Assembly (NCBI GenBank): GCA_964017235.1
Contig: OZ024938.1
Span: 48,024,332 to 48,088,331, forward strand
Source: Sabellastarte sp. h YS-2021
Taxonomy: Eukaryota; Annelida; Polychaeta; Sabellida; Sabellidae
Length of the DNA: 64,000 nucleotides
Direction of reading: 5' to 3'
The notes under the pieces were generated by a model. The model ran no database searches. It was given only the letters and a program-made list of their open reading frames with translations, and was not told the origin of the DNA. Below, one piece after another: positions 10,815-64,000 of this stretch (its first letter is position 1; every line of letters starts with the position of its first letter). The position numbers and the translations under genes are program-made.

Positions 10815-11579
10815 TAGCCTCGTTCGACCTTGAAGAAGGGGTCCAAGGTCAAATCTAACCACACAAATACATTCCCAGCCCATGATTTCCTATGGTTTAC
10901 CATTCCAAACCTCTAGGACCAATTATAAATGAGTTATAAGCACTTTTAAGCTTGGCTGTCCTCATTTGACCTTGAAGGAGGGGTCCAAAGGTCAAATCTG
11001 ACCATACCAAAAGATTCCGAGCCAATGATTTCCTATGGGATGGTTTACCATCCCAAATCTCTGTCACCAATAATAAGCGAGTTGTAGGCACTTTCAATTT
11101 TCGCTATCCTCATTTGACCTTGAAGGAGGGTTCCAAGGTCAAATCGGACCATATCAACAGATTCACAGCCCATGATTTCCTGTCTGTTTACCATCCCAAA
11201 CCTCTGGGACCAATAATAAGCGAGTTATAAGCACTTTTAAGTTTGGCTATCCTTGTTTGACCTTGAAGGAGGGGTCATTGAAGGTCAAATCTGACCACAC
11301 CAAAAGATTCCCACCCCATGATTTCCTACAGGTTGGCTTATCATCCCAAACCTCTAGGATCAATAATAAGGGAGATATAAGCACTTTTCATGACTGACAA
11401 AAAACACCTGTGGCGGCCATCTTGTTTCTCAAAATGAGGCCAAAAATATTCCCAGACAACATTTTCTGGTTATTAATATATACTGCAAACTTAAGAAAGC
11501 TAGCTATAATATTTTTTTTCATCAGAGCAGTAATGGTGAAATCTCTCTCTACACACTGCGGCTATCCAGTGGATACAAT
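10815..11579 (+). mobile_element. 147-bp-repeat element (pearl/HINE-like), degenerate copy
   Basis: Four to five diverged units of about 145 bp each start with TTTGACCTTGAAGGAGGGGT, then 'aaggtcaaat.tgacca', 'cccatgatttcct', 'catcccaaacctct.ggaccaataataag'. They match the array at 54.6-56.1 kb. The array is followed by a non-repeated 3' part (GCGGCCATCTT at 11413, 'ggtgaaatctctctctacac') that ends in TATCCAGTGGATACAA. That is a collapsed form of the 3' hairpin seen intact at 33216 and 56499. A tandem core plus a 3' hairpin fits Helentron-associated pearl-type elements of bivalves; this is inference. Confidence 0.7.
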
Positions 11580-16206: not shown

Positions 16207-19200
16207 CTACAGTACAACACAAAGTATAAGTCACATTTAACACTGACACAGTTTTGACACAAGAATATATAAATGTCATGACAGAAATATCAATTTGATA
16301 AGATTTGAAATTATGCTGATGCAGAAAGTCCAATGGGAGATTCTCAATCAACAGAATATCACATCTTGTTCGATTAGAATTTCCATCACGACGTGCATAT
16401 ATATTATGTCTATAGGTATATTTTCTACAGCTAAAGGGTTTGAGACAATATGTCTGCAAGTATATTTCTAATTTAAACATTTTCAATGTTTTGTGAAGTT
16501 AAATAGTCTTTCTGAGATAGTGCCAAAATCTGAATATGTCATACATATACCATGACAAAAACTAAAATAACTGACAAGATTTGAAAACTCTGTCAACAGA
16601 AAGCTGCAATCCTGTGGTAACTAATCATTTTTGTGAACATAATCTACAAGTGTTGAGTTTCAGTCAACAGATTTTAAAAATTTTGTCAGATTGGACTTTA
16701 TGTCACATGATATATATAAAACAAGCAAGAATTTCATGTTTATTTAATTAATCATTAATTTTTCCTCTATATATTTCTATAAGAGAGATCATCTCATTTT
16801 GCCTAGGATCATAAAAATATTTTTCCTCAAATCTTTTTCCAAATTTTGGTTCAAAACTTTGACAAATAGTAAAAACAATCACACTAATTTAGGCTTTTTA
16901 ATTATGTATCAGAAATTCAATAAATTAAATAAAGTTTATCTCAAAACAAAAAATAATTAAATGAAAGGTATAAACGTTTTACTTTGTTACAAATACAAAT
17001 TTATCAATTTAACAACACTTAGGTAATACATAAATATGGTAACTAAAACCAGTGTTAGTAACATAAAAAGTAACTCAATAATGTTTGTTCTAATGATATA
17101 TATTGTGTAAACATTAAAGCTAACCATAATGTGACATATCTATATCTACTATAAAGACAGGTATTAAACATTTCTAAGTTTCTATACAGATACACCTGTA
17201 AAACAACACAACAAATTACATCAAATTTTTCAGGTTGTTACAGTTAAACACATTTAGCCAGAACTCTGTTTTGGATAATTTCCTAACTTACTATCAAAAG
17301 TGAATATTGGGTCCTGCCGTGACTATTTTATTGAAATTTACCACGTTTTCTGTAATTCTTTGAAATGTAGGGGTACTTTTTCTGATCTATTGGGACTCAA
17401 TGCAGTTCATTTAGTTACTAATTTTGTCTCTATGGCAACAGTTATCAAAGAGAGATTAACTGTAGTATATACTTCACAACAACATCAATAATAAGTAAGA
17501 TAAAGGCACTTTAAGTTTATCTATCCACATTTGACCTTGAATGAGGAACCCAAATTCAATTCTGTGGACCAAAAAAGATTCCAAACTCATGATTCTCTAT
17601 AGGTTTCTAACATATCCCAAATATCTAAGAAGGGACAATATTAACGAGTGAGATGCAGCTACAGTTATTAGTCTGGCCATCCCATTTGACCTTGAATGAG
17701 GGGCACAAGATCAAATATAACCACATGAGATCATTCCCAACCCATTATTTCTTATAGGTTGCCTTGACATCCTAAACCCTAAAGTGTGTCTCGCTTGACC
17801 TTGAACGAGAAGCCTCAGGTCAAATCTGTCTGCAACAAAAGATTCTAACTCCTGATTTTCTATAGATTGGTTCAACAACTTAAATGTCTCGGACCAATAA
17901 TATTGAGCATAATAAAGGCACTATTAAGTTTAGCCAACCCCAAGTTAATCTTAAACAAGGGGTTCCAGATCAAATCTGATCACATCAAAACATTCTCAGC
18001 CCAAGTTTTCTTGTATGTTAGTTTCACATCCCAAACCTATAAAACCAATAATAAGGAGATACATGCACTTATGAGCTTGACCTTATATGACAAATGAAGA
18101 AATAAAGGGTTAAATACATTATAGTTTTGTTTCACATAAGCGAAGTCTTTTATGCAGTAGCATGTAAAGACGTTTCTGTAAACTGTAAGGATAAAATAAA
18201 TATTTACACTGTACTTGTAAATTGTATAAAAATATGTAATCTTGTATTTTATCTTTATATTTCTGTCCACCAAAACCTTTTGCGTATACATATATGAATA
18301 TATATTTTCATGTGCAGGTCATGAACTTCAAAAGATAATTATAGAAAAATACAGAAAATGTAAACTACGCACCTTTGGGATTATTTCGATTTTAATACCA
18401 AAATTTCTGTTGTGTTATGTCTCTCGACTGGAGCAACAATTCAGCTATGGAAAAAACTACAGTAGAACCTCTATTATCCAACCCTCTAGGGACAGTAACA
18501 ATTAGGTCAGATAATAGAAAGGTCGGATAATAGGAAGCCTAAAATAACAGGTTTAAATGGAGTTGGTAGAGTGGGTTTGAGGTCGGATAATTGAAAATTT
18601 GGATAATAGAGGGTCGGATAATAGAGGTTCTACTGTATTAGATTTATGACAAAATTCAGCCAAGTTGGCTATGACTTCAAATACCTGGTGAATCTGGCCC
18701 TAGCCCTAGTATATATGAATCCAGGCTATATTATACAAAATTACAATACTGCATTTACCATCACATACCGTGGTTAATTCCAGGAATGTCACAAAACCAA
18801 GCTCGAATTTAAAGTCATACGATGTTTCTAAAACTGAAGGTAAAATCAACTAAAGGTTGTGGAGGTTTTATTGATTTTTTTACACCTCTTATGGGGTGTA
18901 AGAAAGATACAAATAGATTCTAGTTAAAGTTTAATTGCAGCTTACCTCCAAAAGTGAAGAAAGAAAGAAAATGGTACATAGGAAAAAATCTTCCCATGTT
19001 CATATATAATGCAACACCACACAGCCATATTTGCAAACCTGTTTAACACAACAGATTACATATACTCCTCATACTCGTTATTAAGTACCCTGGGATAATA
19101 CCTGTACTTTTCCACAACTCACCTCATGATCCAAAATGTGAGATCTTTCATCCAGTTCCATTCTGTCTGTTCTTCTGTTATATCCCTTGATTCTTCACAG

Positions 19201-42801: not shown

Positions 42802-43079
42802 ATGAAATGTGCAAACAGAAAAACAAACAAACAATACAGGGAACACTGCTTCGCAAAATATCTCAATAATGTTTATTAACCAAATATAGTCCACAAAAGA
42901 AAATGTCATTTTACAAACATAAAGATATACTAAATATTATATTGCTACTGCTAGATCATATGTTTTACCAAACATCACAGTTGCACCCTAACTGAATGTT
43001 AGCATTTTTAAACAATAGTTTAGCCGAATATATAAAACTTCGGTAACAACATTACGAAAAAAAAATGAATCAATCAAAG
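42802..43079. other. Nothing recognised; no 3' LTR of the Gypsy element
   Basis: The LTR text found at 46.4-46.6 kb was looked for here and is absent, so the retrotransposon is truncated or its 3' end deleted. Confidence 0.5.
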
Positions 43080-45489: not shown

Positions 45490-46292
45490 CGACTATTACA
45501 GGTACTTTTCCTAGACTTAATTGTTATTCCTTGACCTATTCCTCTTCAATTCTTGAGCTTCTCTATGCAGTGCATTAACCTTTGTGGCTTTATCCATTGA
45601 TCTCACCTGCATATGCAATGCTTCTGTAGCTCTGGCACATAGGCTGTCACCTCTGTGGGTTCGAGTCCCACAAGTGGCAATTCTGAGGACCTGTCCCAAT
45701 ATGACCCTGGCTGTTGAACGGGACGTAAAACCCCAACTTTGTAGCTCTGGCAATATCTTGCGAGTCCTTCAATGTTACAGTCCCTGTTTTGTCCAGAAAT
45801 TTTTTGAAATTGGAACTGTGCAACAATTTAATAATGAATCACATATGGCCTCATCCATTTCACCAAACTCTTAGGAAGCTGCTTTTTGTTGTAAGTGGCA
45901 AACTGATCTACATACTCTGACAGTCCCTGCACTATCTGCCTGAATAAATGCCTTTCAAAACTGGTATTAGCTTTTGGAATGAATCAATCATCCAATGTTT
46001 TAATGGTTTCAGCAAAAGCTTTTTTTCACCAAGGTGTAGCACACGTCCTGATAATCTTTCCCACCAGTATGTTATAGAAGTGCTACTTTCTGTTTGTCTG
46101 AAGTTACTCCTTTTGAAGACAGATATATCATAAAGGCTCTTTTCCACCTTTTCCACAGTGAAGACAATGTGTTTGGATCATCCTTGGGGTTGACGCAAGA
46201 AAGTTTACCAACTTTTAGTATCTTCAGGACTTCAAGTTGTTAGCAGATGCTGCACCTCCAGCATGGCTAGTCTCTGGCTCTGTGTCTGACAT
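45490..46292 (-). pseudogene. Gypsy gag, broken by frameshifts and a SINE
   Basis: A start-like ATG at 46292 begins MSDTEPETSHAGGAASANNL and meets a stop shortly after. Further gag-like text (ERHLFRQIVQGLSEYVDQFA; DSQDIARATEALHMQVRSM across the SINE junction) follows in shifting frames. The SINE at 45638-45739 duplicates 13 bp of gag. A CCHC-like CRKCSKVGHLGH lies near 45400 with its last Cys replaced by a stop. Confidence 0.7.
45638..45739 (+). mobile_element. 5'-truncated tRNA-derived SINE (family B) inside gag
   Basis: Only the 3' part is present, starting 'cataggctgtcacctctgtgg', with an intact T-arm-like GTGGGTTCGAGTCCCAC and the tail GGGACGTAAAACCCCAAC. Flanked by TGTAGCTCTGGCA (45625-45637 and 45740-45752), a 13-bp target duplication. 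5' truncation with a target duplication indicates target-primed reverse transcription by a LINE partner. Confidence 0.9.
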
Positions 46293-46400
46293 CCTTTGTC
46301 CTGTTGCTGACCTCTTTGTTTATTTTAAAAGTCCTAAATTATAAAAATATCCTCTTTTTGGCACTAATATAAATCAAGTCAATTTAATCTACATACTTTT

Positions 46401-46413
46401 ATCCTCGTCGCCA
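46401..46413 (-). promoter_or_regulatory. Primer binding site, tRNA-Ser(GCT) type
   Basis: On the minus strand TGGCGACGAGGAT complements the 3' end of animal tRNA-Ser(GCT) including CCA. It sits just inside the 5' LTR and fixes the direction of the element. A duplicate lies at 48062-48074. Confidence 0.88.
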
Positions 46414-46627
46414 ATATAAGATTTAGTGTTGATCGATGAATAAACACACAGATTTAACTAGATTAAACTTTATTTTTATATATCCCTGCAACACTCTCAT
46501 ACACCATGCTTCGGGAACCCCTAACCATGATGTATTTCCTGGCTTGTATGGAAAGGCAACATGTGATACATAATCTATAATGTACTCCTATACTTAACCA
46601 AGGATTTATAAGAGGATATATTACACC
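46414..46627 (-). repeat. Gypsy 5' LTR (borders approximate)
   Basis: About 210 bp between the primer site and a possible TGTAATATATCC start (minus strand). It contains AAATAAAGTTTAATC, a plausible polyadenylation signal. The terminal TG/CA is not clear at the primer side. Duplicated at about 48075-48288. Confidence 0.6.
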
Positions 46628-47256
46628 AATACACTACAGAGGCAGCATTAAATTTTCGCCAAGACATAAAAATGTGGCACATCAGACTTTTAAACTAAGG
46701 TTATTTCATACATTTTTGAAGAATACTTACACAACTCCTTGAGCTTATGAACTTTAAACTCGAAGTACAAAGTACATCTTGTATGGCACAATAAGACAAA
46801 TGTGCAGAAGTAAAAGTAAAAGTTTGCTACACATAACAAATAAGTTGGAGAAAACTTTGAAGGAACCTTCAGATTAAAGTCTTACTGTGTCAGTCATACC
46901 CCCTTGAAATGAAATACCAGGTCAAACAACAACCTTTATCTTATTTTAGACATAATATTGCTAAAAGTTCATATGTTAAGCTAAAATTGGGATAGGATAA
47001 AAGAATGTGACACTAAACATTATAGTTTCATATTTCTGATATAACTTTTACAGTGCTTTATCTCTAACAAAAGACAGAACAAAATTACCAAAAGGAAACA
47101 AGAAAACAAAAATAAATAACTCATAGTCCAGAGACATGACCAACACAGTCAGAAAAATATGATGAACCTAGGGTGGGTACAATTTTGTGATCAGATAAAA
47201 GGGTTTCTTTCTAAGAGACACTTCATATAGTTGAAGTATTCATTCAGTGTTTATAG

Positions 47257-47400
47257 AGGTCCTCAGTGGCCTAGTGGTTAGCAAGTTTGGCATCTAATCA
47301 TAGGCTGTCACCTCTGTGGGTTCGAGTCCCACAAGTGGCAATTCTGAGGACCTGTCCCAATATGACCCTGGCTGTTGAACGGGACGTAAAACCCCAACTT
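47257..47400 (+). mobile_element. tRNA-derived SINE (family B), hybrid copy at the duplication junction
   Basis: Full-length: the head AGGTCCTCAGTGGCCTAGTG, a T-arm GTGGGTTCGAGTCCCAC and CTGAGGACCT. The ten bases at 47257-47266 pair perfectly with 47344-47353, closing a cloverleaf-like fold. Its left flank equals that of the SINE at 48918, but its right flank is the gag sequence found after the truncated SINE at 45638. It is therefore a recombinant of the two. Confidence 0.92.
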
Positions 47401-48917
47401 TGTAGCTCTGGCAATATCTTGCGAGTCCTTCAATGTTACAGTCCCTGTTTTGTCCAGAAATTTTTTGAAATTGGAACTGTGCAACAATTTAATAATGAAT
47501 CACATATGGCCTCATCCATTTCACCAAACTCTTAGGAAGCTGCTTTTTGTTGTAAGTGGCAAACTGATCTACATACTCTGACAGTCCCTGCACTATCTGC
47601 CTGAATAAATGCCTTTCAAAACTGGTATTAGCTTTTGGAATGAATCAATCATCCAATGTTTTAATGGTTTCAGCAAAAGCTTTTTTTCACCAAGGTGTAG
47701 CACACGTCCTGATAATCTTTCCCACCAGTATGTTATAGAAGTGCTACTTTCTGTTTGTCTGAAGTTACTCCTTTTGAAGACAGATATATCATAAAGGCTC
47801 TTTTCCACCTTTTCCACAGTGAAGACAATGTGTTTGGATCATCCTTGGGGTTGACGCAAGAAAGTTTACCAACTTTTAGTATCTTCAGGACTTCAAGTTG
47901 TTAGCAGATGCTGCACCTCCAGCATGGCTAGTCTCTGGCTCTGTGTCTGACATCCTTTGTCCTGTTGCTGACCTCTTTGTTTATTTTAAAAGTCCTAAAT
48001 TATAAAAATATCCTCTTTTTGGCACTAATATAAATCAAGTCAATTTAATCTACATACTTTTATCCTCGTCGCCAATATAAGATTTAGTGTTGATCGATGA
48101 ATAAACACACAGATTTAACTAGATTAAACTTTATTTTTATATATCCCTGCAACACTCTCATACACCATGCTTCGGGAACCCCTAACCATGATGTATTTCC
48201 TGGCTTGTATGGAAAGGCAACATGTGATACATAATCTATAATGTACTCCTATACTTAACCAAGGATTTATAAGAGGATATATTACACCAATACACTACAG
48301 AGGCAGCATTAAATTTTCGCCAAGACATAAAAATGTGGCACATCAGACTTTTAAACTAAGGTTATTTCATACATTTTTGAAGAATACTTACACAACTCCT
48401 TGAGCTTATGAACTTTAAACTCGAAGTACAAAGTACATCTTGTATGGCACAATAAGACAAATGTGCAGAAGTAAAAGTAAAAGTTTGCTACACATAACAA
48501 ATAAGTTGGAGAAAACTTTGAAGGAACCTTCAGATTAAAGTCTTACTGTGTCAGTCATACCCCCTTGAAATGAAATACCAGGTCAAACAACAACCTTTAT
48601 CTTATTTTAGACATAATATTGCTAAAAGTTCATATGTTAAGCTAAAATTGGGATAGGATAAAAAAATGTGACACTAAACATTATAGTTTCATATTTCTGA
48701 TATAACTTTTACAGTGCTTTATCTCTAACAAAAGACAGAACAAAATTACCAAAAGGAAACAAGAAAACAAAAATAAATAACTCATAGTCCAGAGACATGA
48801 CCAACACAGTCAGAAAAATATGATGAACCTAGGGTGGGTACAATTTTGTGATCAGATAAAAGGGTTTCTTTCTAAGAGACACTTCATATAGTTGAAGTAT
48901 TCATTCAGTGTTTATAG

Positions 48918-49059
48918 AGGTCCTCAGTGGCCTAGTGGTTAGCAAGTTTGGCATCTAATCATAGGCTGTCACCTCTGTGGGTTCGAGTCCCACAAGTGGC
49001 AATTCTGAGGACCTGTCCCAATATGACCCTGGCTGTTGAACGGGACGTAAAACCCCAAT
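48918..49059 (+). mobile_element. tRNA-derived SINE (family B), outer full-length copy
   Basis: Same head, cloverleaf-like closing stem and tail as 47257-47400, but followed by unrelated sequence ('ttttgaccttttgatctaag'). No clear target duplication was found on its flanks. Confidence 0.88.
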
Positions 49060-49069
49060 TTTGACCTTT

Positions 49070-49480
49070 TGATCTAAGAGATAGATGTTGCAGGGCGAAT
49101 ATCATATGGGAAATCATTCCATACTTTGGGACAATCATATTGCTTCTTGACTTGTGAACAAATGGAATGAACTATGGCACTTCATGAACTTCACCATCTG
49201 ACTACTAGTATTATAAAAAAAACCTTGATATTCTAAAAAGCCCTGAAATATTTCGGAAAACTGCTAGCTCTGGATGGTCTAATAAACTATTTAATTGTTT
49301 TGAACACTGAACTTTGTTGAACTGGCAACCAATACAAACTCTGAAGCAATAGAGTTATACATGTGAATATCTATTTATGTTGGTGAGAATCCTTGCAAAG
49401 CTATTCTGGATACTTAGGAGCTTCCTAACATGAAAATCTGTAAGACTCCTGAACAAAGAATTGCATTAGTCAAGCTGACT
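49070..49480 (-). pseudogene. Non-LTR retrotransposon (LINE) RT C-terminal fragment, decayed
   Basis: The minus strand reads LLLQSLYWLPVQQ and, further on, KQYDCPKVWNDFPYDIRPAT. These match the LHWLPV and LWNSLPDDIR signatures at the C-terminal end of CR1/L2/Jockey-type reverse transcriptases. Stops interrupt it. Confidence 0.65.
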
Positions 49481-54609: not shown

Positions 54610-56526
54610 TGCACCAAAACCTCTAGGACCAATAATAAGCAAGTTATAAGCACTTTTAAGTTTGGCTGTCCTCATTTGACCTTCAAGGAGGGGCCCAAGG
54701 TCAAATCCGACTACACCAGACGATTCCCAGCCCATGATTTTCTATATGTTGGTTTACCATCCCAAACCTCTAGGACCAATAATAAGTGAGTTATAGGCAC
54801 TTTTACCTTTGGCTATCCTCGTTTGACCTTGAAGGAGGGGCCCAAGGTCAAATCCAACCACACCAGAAGATTCCCAGCCCATGATTTCCTATATGCTGGT
54901 TTACCATCCCAAACCTCTAGGACCAATAATAAGCGAGTTATAAGCACTTTTAAGTTTGGCTATCCTCGTTTGACCTTGAATGAGAGGCCCAAGGTCAAAT
55001 CCGACCACACCAGAAGATTCCCAGCCCATGATTTTCTATATGTTGGTTTACCATCCCAAACCTCTAGGACCAATAATAAGCAAGTTATAGGCACTTTTAC
55101 CTTTGGCTATCCTCGTTTGACCTTGAAGGAGGGGCCCAAGGTCAAATCTGACCACACCAGAAGATTCCCAGCCCATGATTTCCTATATGCTGGTTTACCA
55201 TCCCAAACCTCTAGGACCAATAATAAGCGAGTTATACGCACTTTTAAGTTTGGCTATCCTTGTTTGACCTTGAAGGAGGGGTCCAAAGTCAAATCTGACC
55301 ACATCAGAAGATTCGCAGCACATGATTTCCTATATGTTGGCTTACCATCCCAAACCTCTAGGATCGATAATAAGTGAGTTATAAGCACTTTTAAGTTTGG
55401 CTATCCTCGTTTGACCTTGAATGAGGGGCCCAAGGTCAAATCCGACCACACCAGAAGATTCCCAGCCCATGATTTTCTATATGTTGGTTTACCATCCCAA
55501 ACCTCTAGGACCAATAATAAGCGAGTTATAGGCACTTTTACCTTTGGCTATCCTCGTTTGACCTTGAAGGAGGGGCCCAAGGTCAAATCCGACCACACCA
55601 GAAGATTCCCAGCCCATGATTTCCTATATGCTGGTTTACCATCCCAAACCTCTAGGACCAATAATAAGCGAGTTATAAGCACTTTTAAGTTTGGCTATCC
55701 TCGTTTGACCTTGAAGGAGGGGTCCAAGGTCAAATCTGACCACATCAGAAGATTCGCAGCACATGATTTCCTATATGCTGGTTTACCATCCCAAACCTCT
55801 AGGACCAATAATAAGCGAGTTATAAGCACTTTTAAGTTTGGCTATCCTCGTTTGACCTTGAAGGAGGGGTCCAAGGTCAAATCTGACCACATCAGAAGAT
55901 TCGCAGCACATGATTTCCTATATGTAGGCTTACCATCCCAAACCTCTAGGATCGATAATAAGCAAGTTATAAGTACTTTTAAGTTTGGCCATCCTCGTTT
56001 GACCTTGAAGGAGGGGTCCAAGGTCAAATCTGACCACATCAGAAGATTCGCAGCACATGATTTCCTATAGGTTGGCTTCACATTGCAAACCTCTAGGACC
56101 AATAATAAGGGAGATATAGGCACTTTTAAAGTCCTTTATGTGGGTTACTTCGGCACTCTGTGGATGACCTTGAGTTAGGAGCTTCAAGGTCAAATGTGTG
56201 CAAGGTTGTAGAGAACATGTATATGTGTCATACATATCACCTATGAAGAGATTCAACCTTCTACCTATGAGGAACAGCCAGTAGAAAAATGTAGATTATT
56301 TTCAAAGAAATGCCCGTGGCAGCCATCTTGTTTTTCAGAATGAGGCTATTTTCCTTCCCAGAGAAGCTTACCCCCCAATGAAGATATCCTGCAAATTTGG
56401 TGAACCTAGCTGCTGTTGTTTTCCTCTTAGAGCGTTAACGCCGAAAATCTCTCTATGCGCGGCGGCAGCGGCGGCGGCGTAGCGAACGCTAAACCAAAGT
56501 ATCCACCGGATGCTTCCGGTGGATAC
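54610..56526 (+). mobile_element. 147-bp-repeat element (pearl/HINE-like), large copy inside Harbinger
   Basis: A partial unit, then ten units whose GTTTGACC (or equivalent) starts fall at 54674, 54821, 54968, 55115, 55262, 55409, 55556, 55703, 55850 and 55997, every one 147 bp apart. As 147 is divisible by three, two long but meaningless open frames result. A unique 3' part follows, with GCAGCCATCTT (56319) and a GC-rich 'gcggcggcagcggcggcggcg', ending in a hairpin at 56499-56526. A tandem core with a 3' hairpin matches the layout of bivalve pearl elements, considered Helentron-related (established family; assignment here inferred). Confidence 0.85.
56499..56526 (+). repeat. 3' terminal hairpin of the 147-bp-repeat element
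   Basis: GTATCCACCGGA and TCCGGTGGATAC, 12-bp perfect arms, loop TGCT. The homologous hairpin at 33216-33241 differs at a paired position on both arms. Confidence 0.9.
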
Positions 56527-56579: not shown

Positions 56580-57878
56580 TCAAATCATGTCTCTTTGCCA
56601 CGCCGTGGCCCCTACTGGAGCATTATAATAATGCTTCAAATACAGTCTCTGTCTCTTGGTAACCTGTGTGTCCCTGTTGCCACCAGCCACATCCTCAATG
56701 TCCTGCAAACAAGCACCTTGCCTCCACTGTCCTGGGATAACTCTGTGGTTGTCATCCTCCTCATCACCCAGTCCCTGGTGGATACCTGGATACCTCAGTC
56801 TCATGATGTTGTGCAACGTGCAACAGGCCAATACAATAGAGGTAACAGTCTCTGGATTCTGACTCATTGTGGTGAGGAGACAACCAAATCTGTTGGCCAT
56901 GATGCCAAACGCATTTTCCACCACCCTTCTGGCACAAGACAGTCTGTAGTTATAGATCCTCTCCTCATCAGGAAGTCCTCTGGCACTAAATGGCTTCATC
57001 AACCAGGTCCTCAGAGAGAAGGCATCATCCCCAATGAGAAAATATGGCATATCACGGTCATCACCAAGCAATGGCTCTGCATCAGGTACATCTAAGGTGC
57101 CATCAATAATGCCTGAGCGCAAATCGCAGTCATAGAAGATCTGTGCATCAGAATTGGATTCATTGGTGCCAACATCTACCCAAAAGAACTTGTACTTGGC
57201 ATCCACCAGAGCCAGAAGTATTATGGAATGGAAGCCCTTGTAGTTGAAATAGAGTGAGCCACCATTCTTAGGACACCTGATTGCCACATGCTTGCCATCT
57301 ATAGCCCCCAGGGTGTGATGGAAATTCCATCTGGAAGAAAATTCTGCAGCAACCTGCTTCCATGCATCACTGGTATGGGGAAACTGCATGACTTCCTCAC
57401 CATATTCTGCCATGATGGCCTCACAAGTCTGTCTTACTATGACTGAGATGGTGTTGTGTGCTACCCTGAAGCCAAACATCAGACTCCTGTACTTCTCTCC
57501 AGTGGCCAAGAAACAAAGTGTGATTGCAAGTCTGTATCCAGGGTTGATAGACTTCCTGAACCATGTGTCATATTTCTCAATTCTGGGCCCCACCCTCTGC
57601 AAGACCTCTCTGAACATGGCAGGGTCCATCTGCACAAAATTTCTGAAAGACACCACATCCTCAGCCTCCAGCTCCCTCATCAAACAATCATAGTGTCCAT
57701 AGTCCAACCTCCTGGAGAGCCAGGGCTTCACCCAATACCTCCTGGGCCTTGGTCGACGCCTTCTCTGTCTATTAAACAGTATCTGTGCAATCACAATCTG
57801 ATTCTGTACATTTAAACGATGAGCCTCATACAGTTGCTGCAATAATTTGAGTCTCTGTAGATCCATAGACCTGGGCAT
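56580..57878 (-). CDS. PIF/Harbinger DDE transposase (HARBI1-like), 432 aa, intact
   Basis: One uninterrupted frame, ATG 57878 to TGA 56580. The N-terminus has a helical region and a basic Arg/Pro-rich patch (residues ~38-50). A helix-turn-helix-like region (~110-150) precedes the DDE_Tnp_4 nuclease fold. Visible catalytic blocks are D194 in AIDGKHVAI, the GDDAF Asp pair at 284-285, and E321 in VVENAFGIMANRF; conserved D244 lies in NESNSDAQIF. The length fits full Harbinger transposases. It would cut and paste the element together with the MADF protein encoded convergently at 51365-53529. Resemblance to the domesticated animal gene HARBI1 is expected, but neighbouring element parts favour a transposon copy. 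Confidence 0.93.
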   Translation of the reverse strand: MPRSMDLQRLKLLQQLYEAHRLNVQNQIVIAQILFNRQRRRRPRPRRYWVKPWLSRRLDYGHYDCLMRELEAEDVVSFRNFVQMDPAMFREVLQRVGPRIEKYDTWFRKSINPGYRLAITLCFLATGEKYRSLMFGFRVAHNTISVIVRQTCEAIMAEYGEEVMQFPHTSDAWKQVAAEFSSRWNFHHTLGAIDGKHVAIRCPKNGGSLYFNYKGFHSIILLALVDAKYKFFWVDVGTNESNSDAQIFYDCDLRSGIIDGTLDVPDAEPLLGDDRDMPYFLIGDDAFSLRTWLMKPFSARGLPDEERIYNYRLSCARRVVENAFGIMANRFGCLLTTMSQNPETVTSIVLACCTLHNIMRLRYPGIHQGLGDEEDDNHRVIPGQWRQGACLQDIEDVAGGNRDTQVTKRQRLYLKHYYNAPVGATAWQRDMI

Positions 57879-63844: not shown

Positions 63845-63925
63845 GTCAAAGGTCAAAGTTGGGGTTTTACGTCCCGTTCAACAGCCAGGGTCATATTGGG
63901 ACAGGTCCTCAGAATTGCCACTTGT
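63845..63925 (-). mobile_element. 5'-truncated tRNA-derived SINE (family B), 14-bp target duplication
   Basis: 81 bp reading (minus) CCACAAGTGGCAATTCTGAG to GACGTAAAACCCCAACTTTG, flanked by GGACAGGGTATTAG (63831-63844 and 63926-63939). Truncated within the T-arm. The target lies in satellite DNA. Confidence 0.9.
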
Positions 63926-64000
63926 GGACAGGGTATTAGAAATTTGGTATTAAGAAATATGGAATAGGTCTTAGCATTACATATAGATATTAAAAGCATG

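Follow-up and report, generated by a model that had tools for sequence, protein, structure and literature searches.

A segment of 1661 bp, carrying the LTR of a Gypsy-like element together with part of its flank, occurs twice in tandem within the window (the whole stretch of 64,000 nucleotides that was analysed), and this arrangement was probably generated by unequal exchange between two copies of one SINE family, a 5'-truncated inner SINE and an outer SINE that looks chimeric. The SINE at the join is a hybrid of the two, and the stretch within which the exchange took place is narrowed to 99 bp. Positions below are those of the window.

Anatomy of the tandem duplication

The features of the locus are as follows.

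45625 to 45637: TGTAGCTCTGGCA, target duplication to the left of the inner SINE (one copy only in relatives L003 and L004)
45638 to 45739, plus strand: inner SINE, 5'-truncated, within the gag region of the Gypsy-like element (self-comparison, relatives)
45740 to 45752: TGTAGCTCTGGCA again, target duplication to the right of the inner SINE
45638 to 47298: 1661-bp unit, copy 1 (self-comparison)
46402 to 46413, minus strand: what we take to be a primer-site-like stretch beside the LTR, repeated at 48063
46417 to 46638, minus strand: LTR of the Gypsy-like element, copy 1, about 222 bp (edges from genome copies)
46639 to 47218: non-LTR flank carried in the unit, 580 bp (diverged relative L037, contig C2)
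47219 to 47253, plus strand: 35-nt head from another repeat, copy at the middle SINE (genome copies)
47257 to 47400, plus strand: middle hybrid SINE, which matches the outer copy in head and left flank and the inner copy in tail and right flank
47299 to 47397: exchange interval, 99 bp identical in the inner and outer SINEs
47299 to 48959: 1661-bp unit, copy 2 (self-comparison)
47401 to 47413: third TGTAGCTCTGGCA copy, the right-hand one of the inner SINE, here behind the hybrid SINE
48078 to 48299: LTR, copy 2, in the second unit
48871 to 48879: left direct repeat, TCTAAGAGA, of the putative chimeric outer insertion
48880 to 48914, plus strand: 35-nt head fused to the outer SINE (genome copies of the donor repeat; copy at 47219)
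48918 to 49072, plus strand: outer full-length SINE with tail
49073 to 49081: right direct repeat, TCTAAGAGA, of the putative chimeric outer insertion

A preliminary description of this DNA had proposed a tandem duplication between two SINE copies and a self-alignment by which to check it. Comparison of the window with itself bears the proposal out at 45638-49063: positions 45638-47402 correspond to 47299-49063 at an offset of exactly 1661, over 1765 bp and with 99.89% identity, and the duplication is confirmed as present in the assembly. A repeat by chance is ruled out by such length and identity (1765 bp at 99.9%). The exact offset of the 1661-bp unit stands as described, but the copies are separated by two differences and not by one, namely 47003G/48664A, a flank position and presumably the difference previously counted, and 47398C/49059T, a position in the SINE tail. 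The repeat starts at the 5' end of the inner SINE, since the bases just before its two copies differ (45637 is A and 47298 is T), and the right end of the identity (47402/49063) falls within the SINE tail. With the first base of the inner SINE and the SINE tail as the edges of the repeat, both junctions lie within SINE sequence; junctions outside the SINE, which had been named as a finding that would speak against the proposal, are ruled out by these edges of the self-comparison. When the LTR and flank (46380-47260) were used as a query against the 1.786-Gb assembly, the tandem pair gave the only full matches among at least 41 matches and, apart from this pair, no listed match spans more than 260 of the 881 bases, these counts being lower bounds as 40 of 312 candidates were scored.

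The segment carried by the unit belongs in part to a Gypsy-like element, whose region 43958-44236 matches RT_RNaseH_2 (6.1e-16) and RT_RNaseH (2e-15), a Gypsy-type RNase H. The other five of the six open pieces searched gave no domain above the cut-off, and the element is decayed, as these pieces lie in different frames. Similarity to Gypsy relatives extends left to about 43104 (L015) with a query that began at 43000. The LTR edge at 46638 is where 11 non-tandem matches stop, out of at least 41 from 40 scored candidates of 312 (query position 259 or 260, each aligned over 218 or more query bases). The edge at 46417 is taken from L006, whose match begins there, with neighbouring copies starting 2 bases either way; self-comparison (E 1e-5) revealed no second LTR in the window beyond the tandem copy. 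The gag-like region starts on the minus strand between the right 13-mer of the inner SINE and the primer-site-like stretch, the latter presumably such from its position and by convention. The LTR, the primer-site-like stretch and the gag start were rightly listed as contents of the unit, but the list was incomplete, as there are 580 bp of non-Gypsy flank (46639-47218) in it as well. These three parts of the element were copied as passengers, with no function apparent.

Independent insertion of the inner SINE and the hybrid at the join

The truncated SINE in gag with a 13-bp target duplication is found as it had been described, with TGTAGCTCTGGCA on both sides (45625-45637 and 45740-45752). At the same site in the Gypsy relatives L003 and L004 there is no SINE, the sequence is continuous and a single, slightly diverged 13-mer is present, and hence the inner SINE inserted independently; its origin as a by-product of the duplication is ruled out by these empty sites. 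L005 and four more distant Gypsy relatives (L017, L019, L021 and L024) are also SINE-free at this site, being too diverged for a clean view of the target. The sharing of sequence between the inner and outer SINEs holds as well, although its extent was put at about 95 bp and amounts to 99 exact bases (45638-45736), or 104 bp at 99%.

The middle SINE combines the head and left flank of the outer copy with the right flank of the inner one, as the preliminary description had it; its tail, too, is that of the inner copy, and the 13-mer follows it at 47401-47413. The target duplications on its two sides consequently do not match, TCTAAGAGA lying to the left and TGTAGCTCTGGCA to the right. Both breakpoints fall in different copies of one TE family in the same orientation, and the join is an in-register chimeric TE with 99 bp of homology across the breakpoint, without inserted bases or a second switch. 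At position 47398/49059 the inner and middle SINEs have C and the outer SINE has T; the C of the inner SINE is also present in 30 family copies compared by eye. The T at 49059 thus seems peculiar to the outer SINE, and the exchange has its right-hand limit here.

The SINE family in the genome

When up to 3 mismatches are allowed, a 38-bp core of the SINE has 2955 forward and 3034 reverse matches (5,989) across the 1.786-Gb assembly, and the control, the core pattern read backwards, has 0 on either strand. A sample was made of the first 30 exact core matches, all on contig C1, and leans to young copies because it was chosen by exact match. Compared with the 99-bp shared segment, 16 of these 30 copies are identical, 10 differ by one base and 1 by two, while L044 and L049 (7 differences each) are 5'-truncated within the segment and L055, with 14, differs in length. 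If L055 is left out but L044 and L049 are retained, the remaining 29 copies form 406 pairs, of which 120 agree fully over the 99 bp. Since sampled family copies are so often identical, the identity of the inner and outer SINEs needs no special cause, and gene conversion as a requirement for it was rejected on this ground. An exact direct repeat of at least 9 bp was found by script around 29 of the 30 copies, with only 6 in L046; the family thus consists of many dispersed short copies with target duplications, as expected of a SINE. Its link to tRNA may be drawn from box-like motifs only, that is, from what we take to be an A-box-like motif at 47267 and a B-box-like motif at 47319 of the middle SINE; the Rfam tRNA score of 15.4 bits (E 1.3) lies below the cut-off of 29, and ARAGORN called no tRNA gene. 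A literature search for MetaSINE in bivalves listed no paper with that name, and the family is left unnamed.

Two 5'-truncated copies of the same SINE, one in the window (63854-63927, minus strand, flanked by AATACCCTGTCC) and one at L023:2461-2534, start within one base of each other with 74 identical bases, and their common start is perhaps a preferred truncation point. Elsewhere on C1, a pair of these SINEs 5.8 kb apart represents two separate insertions with different flanking repeats.

Probable chimeric nature of the outer SINE

The outer SINE is full-length, as had been stated, but a plain SINE it does not appear to be: it looks like a chimeric retroposon with about 35 nt of another repeat at its 5' end, inside the TCTAAGAGA pair. 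One 9-bp direct repeat, TCTAAGAGA, encloses both the head and the SINE, and neither part is present at the empty site L037. In 24 sampled SINE copies labelled full-length by script, the direct repeat precedes the GGTCC start at a distance of 0-4 bases in 23 and of 8 bases in L041; directly upstream of the outer SINE no repeat of 5-11 bases was found, which rules out a plain outer SINE with an adjoining upstream duplication. The 35-nt head is identical to the interior of another repeat family (five copies read) for which the assembly has 232 near-matches (115 forward and 117 reverse, including the two here), and similarity to copies of this donor repeat stops where TCTAAGAGA ends, save for one common A. 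Among 3000 flank pairs drawn at random as a control, 5 had a right flank containing the final nine bases of the left one, and 37 had nine or more bases in common at any position. The outer repeat of 9 bp is shorter than the 11-17 bp seen in 27 of the 30 sampled SINE copies.

L037 (C2:179948809-179952988) is a diverged relative of the flank, with about 70-75% identity, that aligns on both sides of the outer SINE and lacks the outer insertion; the flank is therefore old duplicated or repeated sequence. Its alignment scores 296.5 when head and SINE are removed and 285.5 when the SINE alone is removed, whereas the identical positions number 290 with both removed and 297 in the longer, head-retaining version. 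At such identity the empty site gives support, though no proof, for the head and SINE as one insertion, a reading that is on the whole well supported. Allowing up to 3 mismatches, the assembly has the head-SINE junction in the two copies of the tandem only, so that an amplified chimeric subfamily is ruled out; as the junction is found nowhere else, it was copied along with the unit. The chimera would have been made by a template jump of LINE machinery, although the head may instead be a patch added by DNA repair. A similar chimeric retroposon formed via LINE template jumps, WEIRD-MgSINE of Magnaporthe, is described in PMC2104539, and it shares with the outer SINE a foreign piece on the 5' end and one short direct repeat around the whole. 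The direct repeat is 9 bp here and 12 bp in the fungal element, and the SINE is full-length here as opposed to 5'-truncated there. The head is also only about 35 nt and comes from inside a repeat with 232 near-matches, its donor RNA being putative.

Another SINE copy (L072, C1:71121061) lies in the target TCTAAGAGCTAGGT, which resembles the TCTAAGAGA at 49073-49081, and this likeness could reflect target preference or coincidence.

Mechanism and order of events

Both SINE insertions preceded the duplication. The LTR element would have come first, followed by the inner SINE in gag and the outer chimeric SINE in the flank, in either order. The two SINEs, which point the same way and lie 1.66 kb from each other, would then have paired out of register via their 99 identical bases, and unequal crossing-over between sister chromatids or homologues within 47299-47397 would yield two tandem units and a hybrid SINE. 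Unequal exchange between the truncated inner and the chimeric outer SINE is the simplest mechanism and the one we hold to be probable, as the repeat begins and ends at SINE edges, the hybrid is in register and has mismatched target duplications, the inner site is empty in L003/L004, the outer site is empty in the diverged L037, the head-SINE junction was copied with the unit and identical partners are frequent in the family. The exchange presumably was a crossover, against which it counts that 99 bp is a short homology. The preliminary description's "textbook" unequal exchange is thus retained as the simplest mechanism but not as a unique reading, since template switching gives the same structure, and a crossover and a homology-guided replicative switch leave the same sequence.

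The shortness of the shared stretch (99 bp) also suits a replicative origin, by break-induced replication or template switching guided by SINE homology, in which a stalled fork or broken end would anneal at the other SINE and recopy 1661 bp. According to PMC9675761, such routes have been proposed for human TE-mediated rearrangements, RAD51-independent routes being favoured for most events, and its authors cite a need for >100 bp of perfect identity for crossover. The clean join speaks against such an origin, although clean joins can also arise in this way, and we regard it as conceivable but rather unlikely. An assembly artefact, with the unit placed twice via two haplotypes or a repeat walk, would agree with the single base difference between the copies outside the SINE tail. 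However, the window contains no N, the unit would be small next to long reads and no separate single-unit locus is among the matches listed (40 of 312 candidates scored); an artefact is hence improbable, and the duplication presumably exists in the animal itself. A further candidate is end joining or microhomology repair after chance breaks in both SINEs. Other tandem copies in the genome, with joins of about 5 bp or less overlap, would agree with it, but two SINEs inserted separately would have had to break at exactly corresponding bases, and this origin can practically be dismissed.

Unequal exchange of the kind favoured here resembles human Alu/Alu-type duplications, (PMC9675761), in having a same-orientation SINE pair, one hybrid at the join and a kilobase unit. 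It differs from them in that the SINE is shorter, with 99 bp shared against about 300 bp, the partners are near-perfectly identical and the genome is a different one. In that study, duplications make up 33 of 493 human TE-mediated events, and the median length is 1342 bp for all events and 1085 bp for duplications. The locus is an instance of a well-known kind of rearrangement, clean but ordinary. It provides a clean record of ordered events, from the LTR element through the truncated and chimeric SINEs to an exchange narrowed to 99 bp, and suggests that the short SINE here can act as Alu pairs do in humans, with no general view changed. At an assumed substitution rate of 2-7e-9 per site and year, one substitution in 1661 bp would place the event roughly 40,000 to 150,000 years ago, with a wide error. 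More speculatively, and with low confidence, a young SINE family of ~6,000 short, near-identical copies may be actively exchanging at ~100 bp of homology, with copy number at this locus varying among living individuals and the locus preserving a template-jump chimera followed by an exchange that copied its unique junction.

Other tandem repeats and features

Two further tandem duplications were met by accident on C1, one with a period of 3470 in two copies at 99.9% identity and a 5-bp overlap at the join (L031-L032, C1:107384997-107391941), and one with a period of 4587 in three copies at 99.5-99.7% (L069-L071, C1:28341644-28355396). This SINE is absent from the joins of both; a SINE occurs inside the 4587 unit, and none was found in the 3470 unit. 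Given these two SINE-free joins, duplication in this genome does not need SINEs and, judging by these chance finds, has no special tie to them, which counts somewhat against the favoured explanation of the present locus.

In the window, a 432-aa open reading frame at 56580-57878 (minus strand) has a DDE_Tnp_4 domain (7.8e-27) and resembles PIF/Harbinger transposases. Related tandem arrays with units of 143-147 bp lie at 54614-56129, 10815-11388 and 17484-18082, the first with about 10 copies of its unit.
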